From NCBI RefSeq assembly GCF_001423845.1, contig NZ_LMPM01000001.1, positions 2,654,153 through 2,718,152 on the forward strand: a stretch of DNA of 64,000 nucleotides, written 5' to 3'. The translations under genes and the position numbers were made by a program. Source of the DNA: Sphingomonas sp. Leaf357. Its GTDB lineage: Bacteria > Pseudomonadota > Alphaproteobacteria > Sphingomonadales > Sphingomonadaceae. Shown one piece after another: positions 8,023 through 54,823 of the stretch (the stretch's first letter is position 1; each line of letters opens with the position of its first letter). Below the pieces are notes generated by a model. It ran no database searches and was not told the origin of the DNA. It was given only the letters and a program-made list of their open reading frames with translations.

Positions 8023-9735
8023 ATGGGAAAACCAATGGTTTCAGGGCAGACCCCACGCAGGCCGGATGCGCCGCTGGACTGGCGCCGTCGCGCCGCCAAG
8101 CTGTTGGCCAGGGGCGATCGCAAGGGCGCTGCCAAAGCGTTCCAGCGTTATCTTTCCGCCCCTTTGACGCACCCCGTATTGCGCAGCATCGAGGCTTCGA
8201 TCGAGCGGCGCGATTTCGGCTCGGCGGAATTTCTGCTCACCCAGCATCTCGCCGGTGACCCGGACGATCCCGCGGCGCTCCACCTGCTCGGCAAGGCCAT
8301 GGTCGCGATCGGCAAGTATGACGACGCCGAACGCGCGCTCCGTCACGCGGTCGAGATCGTGCCTGCGTTCGCCGAAGCGCGCTATCGGCTCGCCGTGGCA
8401 TGCCTGATGCGGGGAAGCTTTGAAGAGGCGCTGACAGAGACGGCCCACCTGCTGCGCGCGATGCCGAACAACGTCGAATATCTTCGCCTTCGTGCGGGGG
8501 CGCTGGTCGGCCAGGGCGATGTCGGCGGTGCCGTTGAAATCAATGCGGCGTTGGCAAAGGCGCATCCGGGACGCGCCGACATCCTCTTGGACTATGGGCA
8601 TAAGCTACGGCCACTCCGTCGAGCCGAGGATGCCGCCGCCGCCTATCGCGGGGTCATCGCGCTGATCCCACATCAAGGGGACGCCTGGTGGCAGCTCGCC
8701 AATCTGAAGGTCGGCGCGCTCAAGGACGACGACATCGTGACCATACGCGCGCTTTTAGCTTCGAAAGCGCCAACAGATCACGATCGGTACCATCTCAATT
8801 TCGCGCTCGCCCGAGCGCTCGAGGATCGCGGCGATTATGGCGCGGCCATGGCAGCCTACCGAGTCGCCAACCGCGATCGGTTGCGCGTCCAGCCCGAGGT
8901 GCCGGGCGTTACCGCCTCGGAACTGGTCGATCGCGCGATCGCTCTCTTCACGCCCGAATTTCTGGCACGGCACGAAGGATCGGGCGATCCGTCACGTGCC
9001 CCGATCTTCATCCTTGGCATGCCCCGCAGCGGATCGACGCTCTTGGAGCAAATCCTGTCCGCGCATCCGATGATCGAGGGGACGCAGGAACTGCCCGAAC
9101 TGGGCCTGATCGTCCGCACGCTCGATGACGCCGAGCGGCCGGGCAAGCCCCCCTACCCCCAAAGCCTTGCCGATTGCGGGCCGGACGAACTTCGCGCGCT
9201 CGGGGCGGCATATTTGAGTGGCGTCGCCGCCAAGCGGCGCACCGATCGCCCGCATTTCCTGGACAAGCAATGGTCGAACTGGCTGCATATCGGCCTGATC
9301 CAGCTCATCCTGCCGAATGCGCGGATCATCGACACGCGGCGCGACCCGCTTGCGAACTGCCTGTCGATGTTTCGTCAGCATTTTGCCCGAGGCGCGTCGT
9401 TCACCTATGCCATCGACAGCTTGGTCGATGCGTATCGCTCCTACGATCGTCTGATCGCTCATTTCGACGCGGTCCGCCCGGGGCGGATCCAGCGCGTCCG
9501 GCTTGCCGATCTGATCGACGATACCGAAGCGACGGTGCGGAATCTGCTCGATCATCTAGGCCTGCCCTTCGCGCCCGAATGCCTGCGCTTCCACGAATCC
9601 GATCGCCCGGTCTTCACGCCTAGCGCTGAACAGGTGCGCAGACCGATCAACCGCGATGCGGACGCGCTGGTCGCGGGATTCGCGCCCTATGTGGATGATC
9701 TCCGCGCCGCGCTAGGCGAGCTCGCCGCGCCGTGA
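8023..9735 (+). CDS. TPR-repeat sulfotransferase
   Basis: A 570-residue two-part protein. Residues about 30-290 are tetratricopeptide repeats (for example HLLGKAMVAIGKYDDAERALRHAVEI and YRLAVACLMRGSFEEALTE). Residues about 325-550 are a sulfotransferase domain with the PAPS 5'-phosphosulfate loop GMPRSGSTLLEQ (about 331) and the downstream FLDKQWSNW and DTRRDPLANCLS signatures. It would transfer sulfate from PAPS to a protein or glycan; the repeats may select the acceptor. There is no signal peptide, so it is cytosolic. It sits alone behind the PEP-CTERM terminator, and a link to surface-glycan sulfation is only a suggestion. Confidence 0.88.
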   Translation: MGKPMVSGQTPRRPDAPLDWRRRAAKLLARGDRKGAAKAFQRYLSAPLTHPVLRSIEASIERRDFGSAEFLLTQHLAGDPDDPAALHLLGKAMVAIGKYDDAERALRHAVEIVPAFAEARYRLAVACLMRGSFEEALTETAHLLRAMPNNVEYLRLRAGALVGQGDVGGAVEINAALAKAHPGRADILLDYGHKLRPLRRAEDAAAAYRGVIALIPHQGDAWWQLANLKVGALKDDDIVTIRALLASKAPTDHDRYHLNFALARALEDRGDYGAAMAAYRVANRDRLRVQPEVPGVTASELVDRAIALFTPEFLARHEGSGDPSRAPIFILGMPRSGSTLLEQILSAHPMIEGTQELPELGLIVRTLDDAERPGKPPYPQSLADCGPDELRALGAAYLSGVAAKRRTDRPHFLDKQWSNWLHIGLIQLILPNARIIDTRRDPLANCLSMFRQHFARGASFTYAIDSLVDAYRSYDRLIAHFDAVRPGRIQRVRLADLIDDTEATVRNLLDHLGLPFAPECLRFHESDRPVFTPSAEQVRRPINRDADALVAGFAPYVDDLRAALGELAAP

Positions 9736-11424: not shown

Positions 11425-13800
11425 TTAAGCCGCGGCCGACATCTTCCCCGCCAGCATGTCCATAACGGCGTCGCCTTCGATCGGGCGGCTGAACCAATAA
11501 CCCTGGATACTCGAACAGCCCTGCCCGCGCAGCTCGTTGAGCTGTTCGCGGTCCTCGACGCCCTCGGCGGTAGTCTCCATCTTCAGCGCCCGCGCGAGAT
11601 CGACGATGGCATGGACGATCGCGGCCGAGCTTTCGTCCTGTGCGACCCGATCGACGAACGATTTGTCGATCTTGATCTTGTCGAAAGGGAAGCTGCGGAG
11701 ATAGCTGAGCGAGGAATAGCCGGTGCCGAAATCGTCCAGCGCGATGCGTACGCCCATGCCGCGCAGTTGGTGCAGCACCTGCAGCACGCCGGTCTCGCCA
11801 TCGAGGAAGACGGATTCGGTGATCTCGATCTCCAGCCGGTTCGCCGGCAGGCCGCTGCGGGTCAACGCCTGGAAGATGATGTTCGAGAAACCGGAATTGC
11901 GGAATTGCAGCGGCGAGACGTTGACCGCGACCCGGACATGGGCAGGCCATTCCGCCGCCTGCCGACATGCCTCGTGCATCACCCATTCGCCGATCGCGAC
12001 GATGAGGCCGGTTTCCTCCGCCACCGGGATGAATTCCACCGGAGACACGTTACCGCGCACGGGATGTTCCCAGCGGAGCAGCGATTCGAAGCAGCCGATC
12101 CGATCCTTCGCCAGATCGAAGATCGGCTGGTAGTTCAGGCGGAACTGGCCGGTAAGGATCGCCTCGCGCAGGTCCAGTTCGAGCTGCCGGCGCTTGCGCG
12201 CGGCAGCGTCCAGCGCGGGTTCGAAGAACCGGAACACGCCGCGGCCGTCCTGCTTGGCGCGGTATAAAGCGAGGTCGGCGCTTTTCAGCAGCAGATCCGC
12301 ATCGGCACCGTCGCCCGGTCCGATCGCAATGCCGATGCTGACACCGGTGGCGATCTGGTGGCCATCGACCAGCACGGGTTTGCGGAATTGGTCGATGATC
12401 TCCTGCGACAGCGCACGGGGGCGATCGTCGTCGAGACGGCCGGCGAGGATGATGGCGAACTCGTCGCCGCCCAGCCGCGAGACGGTGCCGTCCCGCACGA
12501 GATCGGCGAGCATGAGTCCGACCTGACGCAGCAGCGCATCGCCGATCGGGTGGCCGAGCGTATCGTTGACACCCTTGAACCCGTCGAGATCGAGGCACAG
12601 CACCGCCGCTTTCTCGCCCATCTTTGGCGAACGGATCAGCGCCGATTCCAGCTGCTGACGGAAATAGGTGCGGTTGGGCAGGCCGGTCAGCGAATCGTGG
12701 AACGCGAGATGCGTGATGCGATGTTCGCGCTCCAGGATGCCGGCCGACATCGTGTTGAAGCTCTCGGCGAGGCGAGCGATCTCGTCCGATCCCTCGACCT
12801 TGAGTTCGGCCCGCGAGCCTTCCTCCAAAGCTTTGGCGGCGGCGTCGAGCGCGGCGATCGGGCGGGCGATGCCGCTGGCGAGGCGACGGCTGCCGAGCAG
12901 CACGAGGATCAGGCCCATCACGCCGGCCAGCGCGATCCCGATCTGTAGCGAGCGGTAGGAGGCGAGCGCCTTGTCCAGCGGATAGCTGAGCAGCAACGCC
13001 GCCTCGGGCGTCGTGCCGCGTCCGGCAAGCGGGATGGCGAGCGCAAAGGACTTTCCGCCCGGCAAATCGAGCGTCGCCGGGGCCGCACCCGCCGACTGGA
13101 TCGCGCCGGCCACGAACCGGTCGAGCGCGGCGTCGCCGGCGGCGACTCGATCGGTGGTGGCCCAATGGCCATCGGCGCGGCGATGGAGCATCGTCGCGGT
13201 GAGCGGGATCGCCGACAGGCGTTCGAGCGCCCGCATCTCGGCGGCGTCGAGCGGCACGGCGAAGACCACCTGGCCGATCTGCACAGGGGCCATGATCGGC
13301 GCCACGATCAGACGGTATGTGCCCGCGCCGCTCGCGATCACGGCATTGTTGGTGCCATTGACGAACCTGGACGGCAGCGCCGTCAGCGCCGCGCGCAGAT
13401 CGGCCGGTCCATCGCCGATCACGTCACCGCTCGTCTCCACGACGAAGGCATTGGCGACGCCGGCGCGGGTACGCAGATTGGCGACGGCCGAGGCGATCGT
13501 CGGACGGTCCCCGCTCGCCACGGCAGTACGAAAGCCGAAATCGCGGGCCAGCACGTCGGCCGAACCGGTCAAGGATTTCGCGCGCAGCGCCCAGATGCGA
13601 TCATAGACCGTGCCGCTGGTCGAAAGCTCCGCGCGCACCGAGGCCTGGGCATGGGCCCGGATCATCACCTGTGCGACGATCGCGACCACGATCAGCGCGA
13701 TAGCGAACAACCCGGCATACAGCACGGCCAGCCGGGTGCGGAGATGACGGAAGTCGAACAGCCGCGCGACGATCGGCGCGATCGCGAGGGCGCGGGTCAC
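11425..13800 (-). CDS. Membrane sensor with HAMP, GGDEF and EAL domains (c-di-GMP turnover)
   Basis: A 791-residue inner-membrane protein. TM1 is at about residues 24-46 and TM2 at about 291-312, enclosing a periplasmic sensor of about 240 residues (Cache-like by size and position). HAMP (about 313-365), GGDEF (about 366-530) and EAL (about 545-785) follow. The cyclase motif RLGGDEF (about 441) is intact, but the RxxD inhibitory site is replaced (RDGT). EAL catalytic residues are present: ESLLRW (about 571), NVSPLQFR, EITESVF, DDFGTGYSSLSYL, KIDKSFV and AEGVE. It can therefore be expected to break down, and possibly make, c-di-GMP in response to a periplasmic signal. Its start overlaps the cupredoxin stop by 4 nt, so the pair is translationally coupled. 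Confidence 0.92.
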   Translation of the reverse strand: MTRALAIAPIVARLFDFRHLRTRLAVLYAGLFAIALIVVAIVAQVMIRAHAQASVRAELSTSGTVYDRIWALRAKSLTGSADVLARDFGFRTAVASGDRPTIASAVANLRTRAGVANAFVVETSGDVIGDGPADLRAALTALPSRFVNGTNNAVIASGAGTYRLIVAPIMAPVQIGQVVFAVPLDAAEMRALERLSAIPLTATMLHRRADGHWATTDRVAAGDAALDRFVAGAIQSAGAAPATLDLPGGKSFALAIPLAGRGTTPEAALLLSYPLDKALASYRSLQIGIALAGVMGLILVLLGSRRLASGIARPIAALDAAAKALEEGSRAELKVEGSDEIARLAESFNTMSAGILEREHRITHLAFHDSLTGLPNRTYFRQQLESALIRSPKMGEKAAVLCLDLDGFKGVNDTLGHPIGDALLRQVGLMLADLVRDGTVSRLGGDEFAIILAGRLDDDRPRALSQEIIDQFRKPVLVDGHQIATGVSIGIAIGPGDGADADLLLKSADLALYRAKQDGRGVFRFFEPALDAAARKRRQLELDLREAILTGQFRLNYQPIFDLAKDRIGCFESLLRWEHPVRGNVSPVEFIPVAEETGLIVAIGEWVMHEACRQAAEWPAHVRVAVNVSPLQFRNSGFSNIIFQALTRSGLPANRLEIEITESVFLDGETGVLQVLHQLRGMGVRIALDDFGTGYSSLSYLRSFPFDKIKIDKSFVDRVAQDESSAAIVHAIVDLARALKMETTAEGVEDREQLNELRGQGCSSIQGYWFSRPIEGDAVMDMLAGKMSAAA

Positions 13801-14399
13801 TTGCCCGTGATCGTATAGGTGTTGGTGAAACCGCCCGCGCCGATCGTCGCCGCTTGCGCCAGCATGTTGTCGGCCGCGCGGATCGACGGGTGCCAGACGC
13901 GAACCGTGGCACCGCCGGCCGGCAGGTTGGAAATCGTGGCGTGGCCAGCGGCGTCGGTCTGCACCGCGAACGGCGTGTCGACGACGATGATGAAGGCGCT
14001 CATCTGATCATGGATGTTGCAGCCGAGCGCGACCGCACCGGTATGATCGAAGACGACACTACGCGTATCGTCCTTGCCGTACAGCTTCAGGTCGAACTTC
14101 TTGGCCTTGGAGAAGGAATAGACGTGGTGCCGGACCTTGTCGAAATTCGGGAAGGTCACGGTGGAGCCGATCGGAACGATCAGGACGTGCGGATCGAACT
14201 GGATGTTGCGCTGGGCCATCGCCGTGCCCCAATCGAACCGGATCGGGGCGGCAGGTTTTTTCGGCGTATCGATCATCACGACGGCACCGACGAGCGGTTT
14301 CCCGTCCGCTCCGCGTACGTCGATATTGGCGGTCGCGGCGTGCGCGGCGACGGGGGTAACAGCGGTCGCCAACAGGGCGAGGTAAGCACGGAACAGCAT
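13797..14399 (-). CDS. Exported cupredoxin-like protein (methylamine-utilisation/plastocyanin type)
   Basis: A 200-residue periplasmic protein with a signal peptide (LALLATAVTPVAAHA). The body reads as a blue-copper fold: a first ligand His in VRHHVYSF (about residue 91) and the C-terminal ligand loop LGCNIHDQM (about 126-134), which supplies Cys, His and Met. The N-terminal ANIDVRGADGKPLVGAVVMI is typical of proteins annotated as methylamine utilization protein, but no amine dehydrogenase genes are here. A C-terminal beta domain (HATISNLPAGGATVRVWHP) follows. It is the first gene of a two-gene unit with the GGDEF-EAL sensor and is divergent from DUF3034. An electron carrier or copper/redox sensor role is inferred. 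Confidence 0.88.
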   Translation of the reverse strand: MLFRAYLALLATAVTPVAAHAATANIDVRGADGKPLVGAVVMIDTPKKPAAPIRFDWGTAMAQRNIQFDPHVLIVPIGSTVTFPNFDKVRHHVYSFSKAKKFDLKLYGKDDTRSVVFDHTGAVALGCNIHDQMSAFIIVVDTPFAVQTDAAGHATISNLPAGGATVRVWHPSIRAADNMLAQAATIGAGGFTNTYTITGK

Positions 14400-14509
14400 A
14401 GCCGGACATAGGCCTGAGAGCCTTTCCGACGAGTAAACCGCATCTTCATGGGACGCTAACCATCGGGGGCCATGAGCGGGATGTCATTGTACTCCGGAGC
14501 CTATTCTCG

Positions 14510-15391
14510 ATGTTTGCCCAAATGCTGATTCGGCTGGTGACGGCTCTGATCGCCGTCGCGATGGCCGGGCCGGCGGTGGCGGGTGAGATGCGCCAGGGCG
14601 GCAAGATGTTGCTGACCGGTGGCGTTAGCAGCATCGAGGGCGCAGCGGGCGGCGGCCTGGCCACCTGGGCGCTGATCGCCGGAAACGAAACGGATGCCGG
14701 GATCGGTGGCAAAGTGCACGCCACCTATGTCGCGCTCCCCGATTTCGATCTCGCCAGCGCGGGGGTCGCCATCGGCATCAGGGATCGGGTCGAGATTTCC
14801 TATGCGCGGCAGACTTTCGATACGCGACAGGCGGGCGCGGCGCTTGGCTTGGGCAAAGGCTTCAAGTTCGGTCAGGACGTCTACGGCGTGAAGGTGAGGA
14901 TCTCGGGGAGCGCGCTGTACGATCAGGACAGGATCCTGCCGCAGATTTCGATCGGCGTTCAGCACAAGCGCGCCGACAAGGCACCGATCATCGCGGCGGT
15001 TGGCGGAAAGCAATCGAACGGCACCGATTTCTACGTCGCCGCGACCAAGGTGATCCTGTCGAGGTCGCTGGTGGTCGATGCGACCGTTCGGTTCACCAAG
15101 GCCAATCAGTTCGGCTTGCTCGGCTTCGGCGGGGATCTGAAAAACCGATACAAGCCGCAATTCGAAGGATCGGCGGGGATGCTGATCAAGCGCAACCTGC
15201 TCGTCGGCGCGGAAGTGCGCACTCGGCCGAGCAATCTCGGTTTCGCACGCGAGCAGCGCGCTCTGGACGCATTCGCCGCCTGGTCTGTTTCCAGGAATGT
15301 CGCGTTCACCGCAGCCTATGCCGATCTCGGCGATATCGCTACGGTGCGGCGTCAGCGCGGCGCTTTCCTGTCGCTGCAGGGCAGTTTCTAA
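14510..15391 (+). CDS. DUF3034 family outer-membrane beta-barrel-like protein
   Basis: A 293-residue protein with a signal peptide (RLVTALIAVAMAGPAVAG) followed by the DUF3034 opening GGKMLLTGGVSSIEGAAGGGL. The body alternates polar and hydrophobic residues in barrel-like strands, and the chain ends SLQGSF with a terminal Phe as in outer-membrane barrels. Function is unknown. It is the first gene of a unit with the truncated hemoglobin 15 nt downstream, and is divergent from the cupredoxin/c-di-GMP pair across a 110-nt promoter region. Barrel topology is my inference from the pattern. Confidence 0.8.
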   Translation: MFAQMLIRLVTALIAVAMAGPAVAGEMRQGGKMLLTGGVSSIEGAAGGGLATWALIAGNETDAGIGGKVHATYVALPDFDLASAGVAIGIRDRVEISYARQTFDTRQAGAALGLGKGFKFGQDVYGVKVRISGSALYDQDRILPQISIGVQHKRADKAPIIAAVGGKQSNGTDFYVAATKVILSRSLVVDATVRFTKANQFGLLGFGGDLKNRYKPQFEGSAGMLIKRNLLVGAEVRTRPSNLGFAREQRALDAFAAWSVSRNVAFTAAYADLGDIATVRRQRGAFLSLQGSF

Positions 15392-15406
15392 GCGGAGCCG
15401 GACTCA

Positions 15407-15883
15407 GTGATAAGCATCGTTCTTGCCGCCCTGCTCGGCTTGCAGGCAACGCCCATTCCCCCGCCGGAAGACCCGGTCGATCCCTACACGCAGAGCAACG
15501 CCAATGCCGGGGCGACGCCGTTTGCCGGGCCGGGCATGCTCCGGGCCTTTCACGGTAAGGCCGGGATCGCGCGCGTTGTCGATGAGCTGGTGACGCGGAG
15601 CATCGCCGATCCGCGCATTTCCGATATCTTCAAAGGCCAGGATATGGTGCGCCTGCGGCGCACGCTGAAGGAGCAGTTCTGCTTCATCCTGAATGGTGGA
15701 TGCGATTATACCGGGCGGGACATGAAGGCCTCGCACAAGGATCTCGGCCTACAGACCGCCGATTTCAATGCGTTGGTCGAGAACCTTCAGGCGGCGATGC
15801 GGCAGGAGAAGGTGCCGTTCTTCGCGCAGAACCGTCTGCTGGCGAAGCTCGCGCCGATGAAGCGCGATACCGTCGTCCGCTGA
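15407..15883 (+). CDS. Exported group 1 truncated hemoglobin
   Basis: A 158-residue protein whose residues about 40-150 are a group 1 truncated globin: HGKAGIARVVDELVTRSIADPRI, then QFCFILNGGCDYTGRDMKASHKDLGL, with the His of KASHKDLGL in the proximal F8 position. Two features are unusual. It begins with a hydrophobic leader (MISIVLAALLGLQATPIPPPE), implying export to the periplasm or membrane attachment, while most of the family is cytosolic. The usual FY pair at B9-B10 is replaced by LV, removing the Tyr that normally contacts bound oxygen or NO. It is co-transcribed with DUF3034. Confidence 0.88.
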   Translation: MISIVLAALLGLQATPIPPPEDPVDPYTQSNANAGATPFAGPGMLRAFHGKAGIARVVDELVTRSIADPRISDIFKGQDMVRLRRTLKEQFCFILNGGCDYTGRDMKASHKDLGLQTADFNALVENLQAAMRQEKVPFFAQNRLLAKLAPMKRDTVVR

Positions 15884-52260: not shown

Positions 52261-53025
52261 TCAAACGAAGCGGATCGTCGCCCCGCCATCCTGTCGGATC
52301 ACCCGAGCCTCGACATCGTAAAGCGTGCCGAGCCTGGCATCGGTAAACATCGCATCCGCCCCGCCCTGCCCGACGACCTGCGCGCCCTTCACCGCAACCA
52401 CATCGTCGGCGATGCGCATCGCCAAATCGAGATCGTGCAACGCCACGATCACCGTGCAGCCGCCATCGGCCAGCGCGCGCAACCGCCGTCCCGCATCGAG
52501 CGCGTGGCGCGGATCGAGCCCGGCAGTGGGCTCATCGACGATCAGAAGCTCCGGCTCGCCCACCGTCGCGCGGGCGAGCATCACGCGGGCCAGCTCGCCG
52601 CCCGACAGCTGTGTCGCCGGACGGTCGCGCAGATCCGCCAGATCGTAGCGCGCGAGCGCCGCATCGATCTTCGGCCGCCACGATCCGGGCAGCCCCCCGA
52701 AGGCCGGCAGATGCGCGATCAGCCCCAAAGCGACGACGCGCTCCACGCTGATCGCCCAATCGATCCGCGGGTTCTGCGGCAGATAGGCGCGCCGCGTGGC
52801 CAGCACCTTCCGCGACAAGGAGGACAGCGCCTGACCGCCCAGCGTCACGCTACCCGCCTCCGGCGCCAGCAAGCCGGCGGCGACCTCCAGCAACGTCGAT
52901 TTACCCGCGCCGTTCGGCCCGATCACCGCCGTCAGCCGCCCCGCCGCGAAATGCGCATCGGCGGCGTCGAGCACCACGCGCCCGCCCCGCCGCACGGCGA
53001 TACCAGTCAACACAAGGTCGCTCAC
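52261..53025 (-). CDS. btuD: Cobalamin ABC transporter ATP-binding protein (BtuD-like)
   Basis: A 254-residue ABC ATPase of the FecE/BtuD type that drives B12 import. It has Walker A GPNGAGKST (about 36), signature LSGGELARV, Walker B LLIVDEPTAGLD and the switch His in ALHDLDLAMRIAD. The GTG start is chosen because GTGA overlaps the stop of the permease gene; the open frame further upstream is a shadow of that gene. It is the last gene of the btuB-F-C-D series under the cobalamin riboswitch. Confidence 0.9.
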   Translation of the reverse strand: MSDLVLTGIAVRRGGRVVLDAADAHFAAGRLTAVIGPNGAGKSTLLEVAAGLLAPEAGSVTLGGQALSSLSRKVLATRRAYLPQNPRIDWAISVERVVALGLIAHLPAFGGLPGSWRPKIDAALARYDLADLRDRPATQLSGGELARVMLARATVGEPELLIVDEPTAGLDPRHALDAGRRLRALADGGCTVIVALHDLDLAMRIADDVVAVKGAQVVGQGGADAMFTDARLGTLYDVEARVIRQDGGATIRFV

Positions 53026-54005
53026 GGCGCGGTTCTCCGCACGTGCAGCACCAGCCACAGGAAGAACGGTGCCCCGATCACCGACACGAACACGCCGAGA
53101 TGGATCTCCGTGCCGAAATCCAGGATCCTTGTCGCCAGATCGGCGGCCAGCACGACCAGCGCACCTACGATCGCCGCCGGCAGCAAAGTGGCACCCGGCC
53201 GATGCCCGACCAGCGGCCGCACGATATGCGGCGCGACCAGCCCGACGAACCCGATCGCCCCGGTCACCGCCGTCGCCGCGCCGACGCCCAGCGCCGTGCC
53301 GAGCAGCGCGAACAGCCGCGCCCGCCCGAGATGCACGCCCAAACTCTCCGCCTGCGCCTCGCCCAGCGTCAGCGCGTCGAGCGCGCGGCCGGTCAGGAGC
53401 AACAGTGCAGCGCCTACGGCGATGAACGGCCCGGCAAGCAGCACATGATCCCAACTGCGATCCCTCAGCGACCCCATCAACCACGTCATGATCTCGTAGG
53501 CCGCGAAAGGATTGGGCGCGAGATTGAGCGCGAGGCTCACCCCCGCCCCCGCAATGCTCGACATCGCCACGCCCGCAAGGATCAGCGACAGCGTACCCCC
53601 GCGCCGCGACAGCGCGAACGCCACGCCCGCCGTCACCAGCGCCCCGACCATCGCGAACACCGGCGTCGCCAGTCCGAAACTGGCGGCGAACCCGTAATAG
53701 ATCGCGATCACCGCGCCGAGCGACGCGCCCGACGACACGCCGAGCAACCCAGGCTCGGCCAGTGGATTGCGCAGCAGCCCCTGCAACACCGCCCCCGAAA
53801 GCCCGAGGATGCCGCCGACCAACACCGCCAGCACCACACGCGGCAAACGCACCTCGATCACGATCAGCCGTGCGAGACTATCGCGCGGTGCCGCCAATGC
53901 TTGGATCACTTCGCCTGGCGTCATCCAGACCGATCCGGCGAGCAGGGACACGAAGGCCAGTGCCACCAAGGCACCTACCAACACGATCAGCCAGCGCGCG
54001 CTCAA
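53022..54005 (-). CDS. btuC: Cobalamin ABC transporter permease (BtuC-like, FecCD family)
   Basis: A 327-residue FecCD-type permease with about ten membrane helices. Family marks include LPRVVLAVLVGGILGLSGAVLQGLLRNPLAEPGLLGVSSGASLGA (about 54-98) and GFVGLVAPHIVRPLVGH (about 246). The FecCD family serves B12, heme and siderophores; the gene order and riboswitch make B12 the substrate. It overlaps both neighbours by 4 nt. Confidence 0.92.
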   Translation of the reverse strand: MSARWLIVLVGALVALAFVSLLAGSVWMTPGEVIQALAAPRDSLARLIVIEVRLPRVVLAVLVGGILGLSGAVLQGLLRNPLAEPGLLGVSSGASLGAVIAIYYGFAASFGLATPVFAMVGALVTAGVAFALSRRGGTLSLILAGVAMSSIAGAGVSLALNLAPNPFAAYEIMTWLMGSLRDRSWDHVLLAGPFIAVGAALLLLTGRALDALTLGEAQAESLGVHLGRARLFALLGTALGVGAATAVTGAIGFVGLVAPHIVRPLVGHRPGATLLPAAIVGALVVLAADLATRILDFGTEIHLGVFVSVIGAPFFLWLVLHVRRTAP

Positions 54006-54823
54006 GATGTCACCGCCGCCACCTGTCGCCGCAGGTCGACCGCAGCGTCGCCGATCGCCGGCGTGCCGCAGATCGTCGCCGATTGCGCCACGGTCAGCCG
54101 CTTCGCCGCCGGCCAGAAACGCCGCACCAATGGATGACCGCTGACGTTATCGCCCAACGACCCCTCACGTGGGTCGGCCACGCCGCGGACCAGGAAATCC
54201 GGCTTCGCCCGCAACAAGGCCTCGATCCCGCCGCGTGATCCCACGCTGGTCAGTCCGGCGGCAGCGACGATCGCTGAGAGAAAAGGACTGTCGCTCATGC
54301 CGTCCCGCCCCCAGGCGGCGACAGTGATCGGCCTTGCGCTGCGCACCGGTGCCAGTTGCGCATCCATCCGCGCGATCATCGCCTCGCCGCGCGCGCGCTC
54401 GCCGAGCGCCGCCGCCAGCACGCCGACGTTGCGTCGTATCCCTGCGACATCACCGGAATCCGCCAGTTCGAGCACCGGATAGCCCAGCCGCCGCAACATC
54501 GCGCGCCCGCCAGGATTGGAGAAGGTATCGGTCACGATCAGATCGGGCCGCGCCCGCGCGACCTCCTCGACGCTGCCGTGATTGGCCGCCACGCGTCGCG
54601 CCGCCGCGACTTGCGCCGAATAGCGCGGATCGCGCGACAGCCACGTCACCGAAGCGATCCGGCTAGGCGGCAGCAGCGCCAGCACCAATTGGTCGGTGCA
54701 CTGGTTCAAGCTCATCACCCGCATCGGCCGTGCGACCGGAACGGACGCGGCCGGCACGCTCGCGGTGCAGCCGCCCAGAAGCGCGGGCGACAGCAACGCG
54801 AGCCATGCCGGCCGCACCTTCAT
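54002..54823 (-). CDS. btuF: Cobalamin-binding protein (BtuF-like)
   Basis: A 273-residue periplasmic binding protein of the class III (BtuF/FecB) fold, with an N-terminal lipoprotein-type signal (LALLSPALLGGC). Core phrases are RVMSLNQCTDQLVLALLPPSRI, ARPDLIVTDTFSNPGGRAML, and IRRNVGVLAAALGE. It should hand B12 from the BtuB receptor to BtuCD. Its ATG overlaps the btuB stop by one base (TGATG), and its stop overlaps the permease start. Confidence 0.88.
   Translation of the reverse strand: MKVRPAWLALLSPALLGGCTASVPAASVPVARPMRVMSLNQCTDQLVLALLPPSRIASVTWLSRDPRYSAQVAAARRVAANHGSVEEVARARPDLIVTDTFSNPGGRAMLRRLGYPVLELADSGDVAGIRRNVGVLAAALGERARGEAMIARMDAQLAPVRSARPITVAAWGRDGMSDSPFLSAIVAAAGLTSVGSRGGIEALLRAKPDFLVRGVADPREGSLGDNVSGHPLVRRFWPAAKRLTVAQSATICGTPAIGDAAVDLRRQVAAVTS

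Follow-up and report, generated by a model that had tools for sequence, protein, structure and literature searches.

Two divergent gene pairs

Two divergent gene pairs lie side by side in a 64,000-nt stretch of the Sphingomonas sp. Leaf357 genome (contig NZ_LMPM01000001.1, positions 2,654,153 to 2,718,152), which as a whole is referred to here as the window and from whose first base positions are counted. On the minus strand, a gene for a cupredoxin, designated CUP (13797..14399), precedes a gene for a membrane receptor with GGDEF and EAL domains (11425..13800; GTG start in a check of the open reading frames [ORFs]), and the stop of the first overlaps the start of the second by 4 nt. On the plus strand, a DUF3034 gene (14510..15391) is followed after 15 nt by the gene for a group 1 truncated globin (15407..15883; GTG start) that is probably exported. 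The intergenic region, 14400..14509, measures 110 nt between the CUP and DUF3034 start codons. All four ORFs are present where an earlier note on this DNA, made by a model from the letters alone, had placed them, and the 4-nt overlap is as that note had it. With 10 EAL loci in the 3.87-Mb genome, the expectation of one lying within 6 kb is about 3%; a chance neighborhood was rejected because the arrangement recurs across genera.

The receptor matches dCache_3 (38.6 bits; cut-off 25.7), HAMP, GGDEF and EAL in Pfam. Hydropathy segments predict a first transmembrane segment (TM1) at residues ~20-53, a periplasmic dCache_3-type ectodomain, a second transmembrane segment (TM2) at ~282-308 and then HAMP; a weaker segment, 164-184, falls within the ectodomain. 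The GGDEF motif is intact, and the EAL motif reads ESL, with the catalytic Glu retained. Glu572, Asn627, Glu659, Asp689, Asp690, Lys710, Glu746 and Gln766 of the EAL domain, which we take to be catalytic, are each conserved in 99 of 101 CUP-adjacent receptors (the other two are gapped), and the GGDEF motif is active-like in 50 of the 101. Because the EAL residues are kept in all 99 ungapped relatives and GGDEF is active-like in half, the most likely output of the window receptor is degradation of cyclic di-GMP (c-di-GMP) by a predicted EAL phosphodiesterase. The earlier description of this protein as a c-di-GMP sensor needs correcting: it does not sense c-di-GMP, and its GGDEF and EAL domains make it a c-di-GMP-metabolizing receptor instead. 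The ectodomain has a conserved D-F-G-F-R...R motif, in which Arg112 is found in 101/101 sequences; a PDB profile search with the ectodomain gave a match confined to the TM2/HAMP end.

Judged by its sequence, CUP is an exported type 1 cupredoxin with a C-terminal domain resembling CarboxypepD_reg (below the Pfam cut-off). It scores 13.7 bits against Pfam Copper-bind, under the cut-off of 21.2; a PDB search with the profile of the CUP family found chains of amicyanin and copper nitrite reductase (CuNIR). The type 1 copper ligand positions, His, Cys, His and Met, are invariant in 54/54 aligned sequences, and CUP is a predicted copper protein. RefSeq names one relative "methylamine utilization protein."

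The DUF3034 protein matches PF11231 with 317.7 bits (cut-off 25) over the full profile, 1-255. It has a signal peptide and a C-terminal Phe, the latter shared by 99 of 118 relatives, and these two features make it a putative outer-membrane barrel. An amphipathic-strand test found 16 segments against a shuffle mean of 14.6 (182 of 500 shuffles reach the count and 50 of 500 the mean), and a PDB profile search found no convincing relative. The globin matches PF01152 with 38.1 bits (cut-off 21). The family identities assigned before to the DUF3034 protein, the truncated globin and the GGDEF-EAL receptor agree with these Pfam matches.

In 118 globins of this family, the proximal His at F8 is found without exception and the CD1 Phe in 117. 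Position E11 is Leu, Phe or Ile in every sequence, never polar, and B10 is apolar in 106 and Tyr in 9. The window globin follows this plan, with the proximal His, the CD1 Phe, a C-x6-C pair and an apolar distal pocket (Val at B10, Leu at E11). By pattern, 108 of 118 globins have the C-x6-C pair; one of the ten misses has an insertion, and the other nine, from Brevundimonas, Phenylobacterium and their kin, lack both cysteines jointly. The paired loss hints at a disulfide, though the nine may represent few events. Crude export patterns gave 30 lipoboxes, 78 hydrophobic N-termini and 10 unscored sequences among the 118. The claim that the globin is exported draws mainly on these leader patterns in relatives, as the leader of the window protein is short and without a basic N-region.

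Conservation and co-occurrence of the four families

A contig scan of GTDB returned at least 588 confirmed DUF3034 relatives, of which the best 80 were kept, a set biased to the relatives of the window. These best 80 of at least 588 include members from Sphingomonas, Novosphingobium, Sphingobium, Caulobacter, Brevundimonas, Phenylobacterium, Azospirillum, Caballeronia, Burkholderia, Frateuria and Lysobacter, among others; the nearest named relatives among the matches listed are from Sphingomonas. Clustering of the ORFs from 120 DUF3034 loci gave groups for DUF3034 (120 loci), the globin (117 loci, or 118 when a profile was used), CUP (103 loci) and an EAL cluster (94 loci, or 92 after removal of the histidine kinases of L108 and L109; L and G numbers denote loci and genomes). 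No further neighbor cluster occurs in more than 7 of these loci. The divergent order of the window is seen in 49, the order CUP-receptor-DUF3034-globin on one strand in 22 and DUF3034-globin-CUP-receptor in 10, two of them with histidine kinases; L044 and L138 owe their apparent order to over-long ORFs, and in L146 the CUP-EAL pair lies slightly past 6 kb. The set is retained even though its gene order is reshuffled. Conservation of all four genes within 6 kb across genera, the check that the earlier note had suggested, is seen in many proteobacteria.

A fairer sample than these named loci is a set of 398 Pseudomonadota genomes from 212 genera, in which strong matches alone were counted (CUP and receptor, E<=1e-30; globin, E<1e-38) and weaker ones dropped, including a full-length receptor in G021 (1.4e-29). 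DUF3034 is present in 39 of these genomes and 27 of the genera, with a patchy distribution: of the 7 sampled genomes from the genus of the window, only 2 contain it. All 39 DUF3034 genomes encode the exported globin, 38 CUP and 37 the receptor ectodomain. Pair by pair, DUF3034 and globin occur together in 39 genomes, DUF3034 alone in none and the globin alone in 2; CUP and the ectodomain occur together in 49, CUP alone in 4 and the ectodomain alone in 1; DUF3034 and CUP occur together in 38, DUF3034 alone in 1 and CUP alone in 15. Locally, the 39 fetched DUF3034 neighborhoods plus the window contain the globin in 39/40 and CUP in 33/40.

A receptor lies less than 400 bp from CUP in 46 of 55 receptor loci, and in 23 of 32 when the 23 profile-building loci are left out. 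Five genomes (G126, G142, G158, G375 and G015) hold CUP and receptor far apart. Other non-adjacent cases are a second receptor-like locus in G207 and the receptor of G119, a genome without a strong CUP. In G237 and G344 (L033 and L032), a further receptor whose ectodomain belongs to this family stands 1.5 kb from CUP, in tandem upstream of it; that of L033 is a GGDEF-EAL protein by Pfam. The genes are mostly linked, and the two pairs do lie apart in some genomes, which the earlier note had listed as evidence against its proposal. A single indivisible four-gene unit was rejected on this ground. The four families are instead two strongly co-occurring pairs, with DUF3034-globin nearly nested in CUP-receptor.

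Outputs and barrel-like partners of CUP

In 101 of 133 CUP loci the gene next to CUP encodes an EAL receptor, in 97 of them on the same strand, and at least 25 of these 97 pairs have the 4-nt overlap (a minimum, as each ORF was taken to begin at its first possible start). Elsewhere the adjacent output differs: a cyclase in L152, L154 and L187, a Ser/Thr kinase in L163, a chemoreceptor in L116 and a histidine kinase in L108, L109, L136 and L181, and in L141 and L148 a membrane sensor without a recognized output. In L152, L154, L163 and L164 the match of the receptor profile spans almost the whole ectodomain, and the DUF3034-globin front end precedes CUP and a non-EAL output in L108, L109, L136 and L116. 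In L164, a gene for a MauG-type di-heme peroxidase (by Pfam) stands between CUP and a PAS histidine kinase. L165 has a similar order, again with a PAS histidine kinase and with a short ORF that by eye is peroxidase-like, and L180 has a CUP-like gene and, by eye, a peroxidase. These three loci are a possible peroxide-sensing cousin of the module.

CUP itself occurs in two forms, a long one with the C-terminal domain and a short one. Long CUP goes with a dCache-type ectodomain in 105 of 107 pairs and short CUP with other ectodomains in 5 of 6, a count that is partly circular and from whose table L187 is excluded. In the sixth short-CUP pair (L136), the ectodomain is matched weakly, and the profile concerned extends over HAMP.

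The partner on the other side varies as well. A second family of about 410 amino acids, weakly porin-like, adjoins CUP (L151, L153, L155, L156, L159-L162, L166, L172 and L174-L176); 32 columns are invariant in 12 sequences, two members checked gave no NCBIfam match, and comparison with DUF3034 by hhalign gave a probability of 14.9. It is found in 14 of the 398 genomes, all 14 with CUP and 6 also with DUF3034, and 13 of its 15 matches are near CUP; since 12 of the 15 are profile-building sequences, the new information is that no member occurs in a CUP-less genome. In L152, L154 and L157, CUP comes after a barrel-like protein of yet another, third kind. That the second and third families are barrels is suggested by weak Pfam matches or by position. 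By hand count, 49 of the 53 genomes with CUP encode at least one of these three barrel-like kinds. What all versions seen share is CUP; outputs, ectodomains and barrel-like partners vary.

CUP as a candidate periplasmic co-receptor

The earlier note had read the locus as one relay from the envelope to c-di-GMP. Linkage across genera, co-occurrence in genomes, including the five in which CUP and receptor are unlinked, and the exchange of outputs and partners all favor a relay; its parts are two nested pairs rather than one unit, and its output in the window is a predicted phosphodiesterase. We think it somewhat probable that, within a cross-envelope sensory module, CUP serves in the periplasm as co-receptor to a receptor that can be exchanged. 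In the proposed mechanism, DUF3034 would sit in the outer membrane with the globin on its periplasmic side, anchored or free. By binding O2, NO or peroxide, or by reacting with it, the globin heme would set the state of CUP through electron exchange. The copper site would change between Cu(I) and Cu(II) or between apo and holo forms, and CUP in one state would dock on the receptor ectodomain as a periplasmic input subunit. In the window, EAL would then degrade c-di-GMP, with GGDEF as a second activity or an allosteric site, so that the redox or gas status of the outer envelope would be read in the periplasm and become a change in c-di-GMP. Redox coupling between heme and CUP is favored because a heme protein is often nearby (the globin, or the peroxidase of L164) while the copper protein stays; even so, the redox specifics are rather doubtful.

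Several observations weigh against this proposal. The ectodomain has no conserved His, Met or Cys column, and Cys appears there in 3% of sequences. Versions exist in which no heme gene is seen, and the globin is absent from those with other barrels, which implies that heme is not essential to the plan. The barrel fold of DUF3034 is putative, and short-CUP cases are few. Among the 120 DUF3034 loci, 15 have DUF3034-globin alone within 6 kb, a few of them at contig ends. Of six genomes checked that have such a CUP-less DUF3034-globin locus, four have CUP elsewhere (the unlinked CUP of Azospirillum griseum is weak and short), and two, both metagenome-assembled genomes, have none. G078 carries DUF3034-globin without a strong CUP or receptor. 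Conversely, at 13 of the 59 strong CUP loci no receptor is found as close as 400 bp: some of them (L153, L155, L166, L174 and L175) are beside a barrel-like protein only, and some (L158 and L173) stand alone, though these seven genomes carry a receptor elsewhere. Finally, the E-value limits were set after the lists had been viewed, the profiles were built from module members, which makes some counts partly circular, and the Fisher values for co-occurrence ignore phylogeny.

A rival reading makes CUP a sensor of copper status rather than a redox relay, with apo or holo CUP docking on the receptor to report periplasmic copper, and DUF3034 and the globin as accessories for copper or heme passage or for protection from O2 or NO. 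The invariant copper ligands would suit it, as would the 15 CUP genomes that lack DUF3034, among which CUP occurs with receptors. However, type 1 copper sites usually serve electron transfer, a heme protein is often nearby (the globin, or the MauG-type peroxidase of L164), and the most frequent neighbor beyond the four families reaches only 7 of 120 loci, a ceiling that holds for any copper-handling gene too, although no dedicated search for copper genes was made. We regard this reading as unlikely.

About equally unlikely is that the two pairs are functionally separate and share only regulation or habitat, DUF3034-globin serving envelope detoxification or transport and CUP-receptor signaling. 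The pairs are nested rather than identical, lie apart in some genomes and form divergent operons in alphaproteobacteria, all of which speaks for it. Yet 37 to 38 of the 39 DUF3034 genomes have the receptor or CUP, against 50 to 53 of 398 overall, the 22 single-strand loci are continuous four-gene runs, other orders occur, and other barrel-like proteins are found next to CUP.

Less likely again is a gas sensor for NO or O2 in which primary sensing falls to the globin, with its apolar distal pocket, while CUP does no more than exchange electrons with it and the receptor reads the globin or both. The heme-site residues speak for it (proximal His in 118/118, no polar E11, B10 apolar in 106/118), and DUF3034-globin is nearly always accompanied by CUP-receptor; but CUP-receptor pairs occur without a globin, and globins can be scavengers too. 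A locus that is not about signaling at heart, with CUP and DUF3034-globin forming a pathway for electron transfer or for a nutrient whose expression or biofilm context the receptor merely tunes, is very improbable: the RefSeq name and the amicyanin similarity of CUP point that way, but no adjacent enzyme gene recurs (methylamine dehydrogenase itself was not searched for; no extra neighbor exceeds 7 of 120 loci), and the adjacent partner in 101 of 133 CUP loci is an EAL receptor.

Returning to CUP as co-receptor, we tentatively suggest a wider class of trans-envelope receptors that has no name as yet, while judging it likelier to be wrong than right. In it, a periplasmic blue-copper protein would be a plug-in co-receptor that takes its state from a barrel-like partner of the outer envelope (DUF3034 with an exported heme globin, or unrelated barrels) and relays it to the receptor paired with it, whether c-di-GMP phosphodiesterase, nucleotide cyclase, Ser/Thr kinase, histidine kinase or chemoreceptor. 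The signal would be electrons or copper occupancy, with no diffusible organic ligand. A blue-copper protein is thereby proposed as the input of several receptor types, and a testable role is offered for DUF3034, the exported truncated globin and the cupredoxin labeled for methylamine utilization. For many c-di-GMP enzymes no input is known, and this small linked gene set offers a testable one.

Comparison with known systems

The component families are known; the assembly is new. Searches of open-access PMC literature on the module parts yielded no description of such a system, and DUF3034 is mentioned there in two papers. A plasmid copy from Caballeronia is annotated in RefSeq as a DUF3034 family protein, a group 1 truncated hemoglobin, a methylamine utilization protein and an EAL domain-containing protein, with no system named.

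A close parallel is the polyamine receptor NspS-MbaA of Vibrio cholerae. According to excerpts of PMC8967002, MbaA is a GGDEF-EAL receptor of the inner membrane under the control of a protein in the periplasm, and without its bound partner it acts as a phosphodiesterase. For the module, a periplasmic partner of the receptor is proposed from same-strand adjacency in 97 pairs. NspS binds polyamines, whereas the proposed partner here is a cupredoxin, DUF3034-globin is added and the outputs vary.

The three-compartment plan recalls YfiBNR of Pseudomonas aeruginosa, excerpts on which describe an outer-membrane lipoprotein, a periplasmic regulator and an inner-membrane c-di-GMP enzyme, with YfiB sequestering YfiR, the inhibitor of YfiN. 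In those excerpts YfiBNR has no cupredoxin, globin or DUF3034, and none of the four window proteins has a Pfam match to the YfiB (OmpA-type lipoprotein) or YfiR families. YfiN, moreover, is a cyclase without EAL. The module is thus a member of neither the NspS-MbaA nor the YfiBNR system. FecA-FecR-FecI likewise passes a signal from an outer-membrane protein through the periplasm to an inner-membrane output; unlike it, the module has no dedicated sigma factor as a rule, and among selected neighbors checked, genes for extracytoplasmic function (ECF) sigma factors or RskA-type proteins lie near L086, L104 and L127 only. Specifically, ECF sigma genes are near DUF3034-globin in L086 and L104, and RskA-type anti-sigma genes in L104 and L127.

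At the level of single proteins, the globin resembles group 1 truncated hemoglobins (HbN, cyanoglobin) in profile match, proximal His and CD1 Phe. It differs in being apparently exported, partly as a lipoprotein, in mostly having C-x6-C and in lacking a polar B10/E11 pocket. Wild-type HbN has Tyr at B10 and Gln at E11; the PDB chain aligned to our globins has Phe at B10 and Val at E11. CUP shares its copper ligand set and profile similarity with amicyanin and other type 1 cupredoxins; its long form differs by the extra C-terminal domain, and its genetic partner is a receptor.

The divergent gap and neighboring genes

A promoter region shared by the two pairs had been assumed; the divergent arrangement and the 110 nt are there, but the gap (14400..14509) contains no match to a sigma-70-like promoter or to a terminator, so a shared promoter region is putative. 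The 49 divergent gaps, that of the window included, are free of exact FNR and CRP patterns and of exact NorR-type ones; allowing a single mismatch gives counts of 0, 0 and 7. The heptamer TTAACCA, which resembles a CtrA half-site and is enriched in the gap of alphaproteobacterial copies, is found in 19 of the 49 (shuffled mean 0.9, maximum 4), at 2.22 per kb versus 0.02 per kb in the other intergenic DNA of the same loci, although it was chosen after viewing frequent 7-mers and the loci are related. Part of the enrichment may be base composition, because a control 7-mer is also raised, to 0.44 versus 0.08 per kb; it occurs in 3 loci, against a shuffled mean of 0.8. The sequence TTAACCAT, a CtrA half-site or variant according to excerpts of PMC6180460 and PMC3692519, occurs in 9 of 49 gaps, and the full site TTAA-N7-TTAA in 1. 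The window has CTAACCAT at 14456..14463 on the plus strand, one mismatch from TTAACCAT and, in the window alone, not above chance. If real, such half-sites would link the module to the alphaproteobacterial motility and cell-cycle regulon.

The most frequent extra neighbor of the 120 DUF3034 loci, in 7 of them, encodes a chemoreceptor (CHASE3, HAMP, MCP signal), e.g., L034 4004-5965. At one locus, L117 (567-2967), genes resembling a cytochrome bd-type oxidase by eye stand beside DUF3034-globin-CUP. The second locus of G078, L070, has a broken DUF3034 copy beside a disrupted globin. DUF3034 homologues are present on 13 plasmid records (nine from Caballeronia, three from Novosphingobium and one from Paraburkholderia), one of them typed as conjugative. 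Elsewhere in the window, 8023-9735 encodes a TPR-sulfotransferase protein (Sulfotransfer_3 and TPRs in Pfam), and 52261-54823, by eye, ABC uptake genes of the cobalamin/iron type (ATPase, permease and binding lipoprotein).

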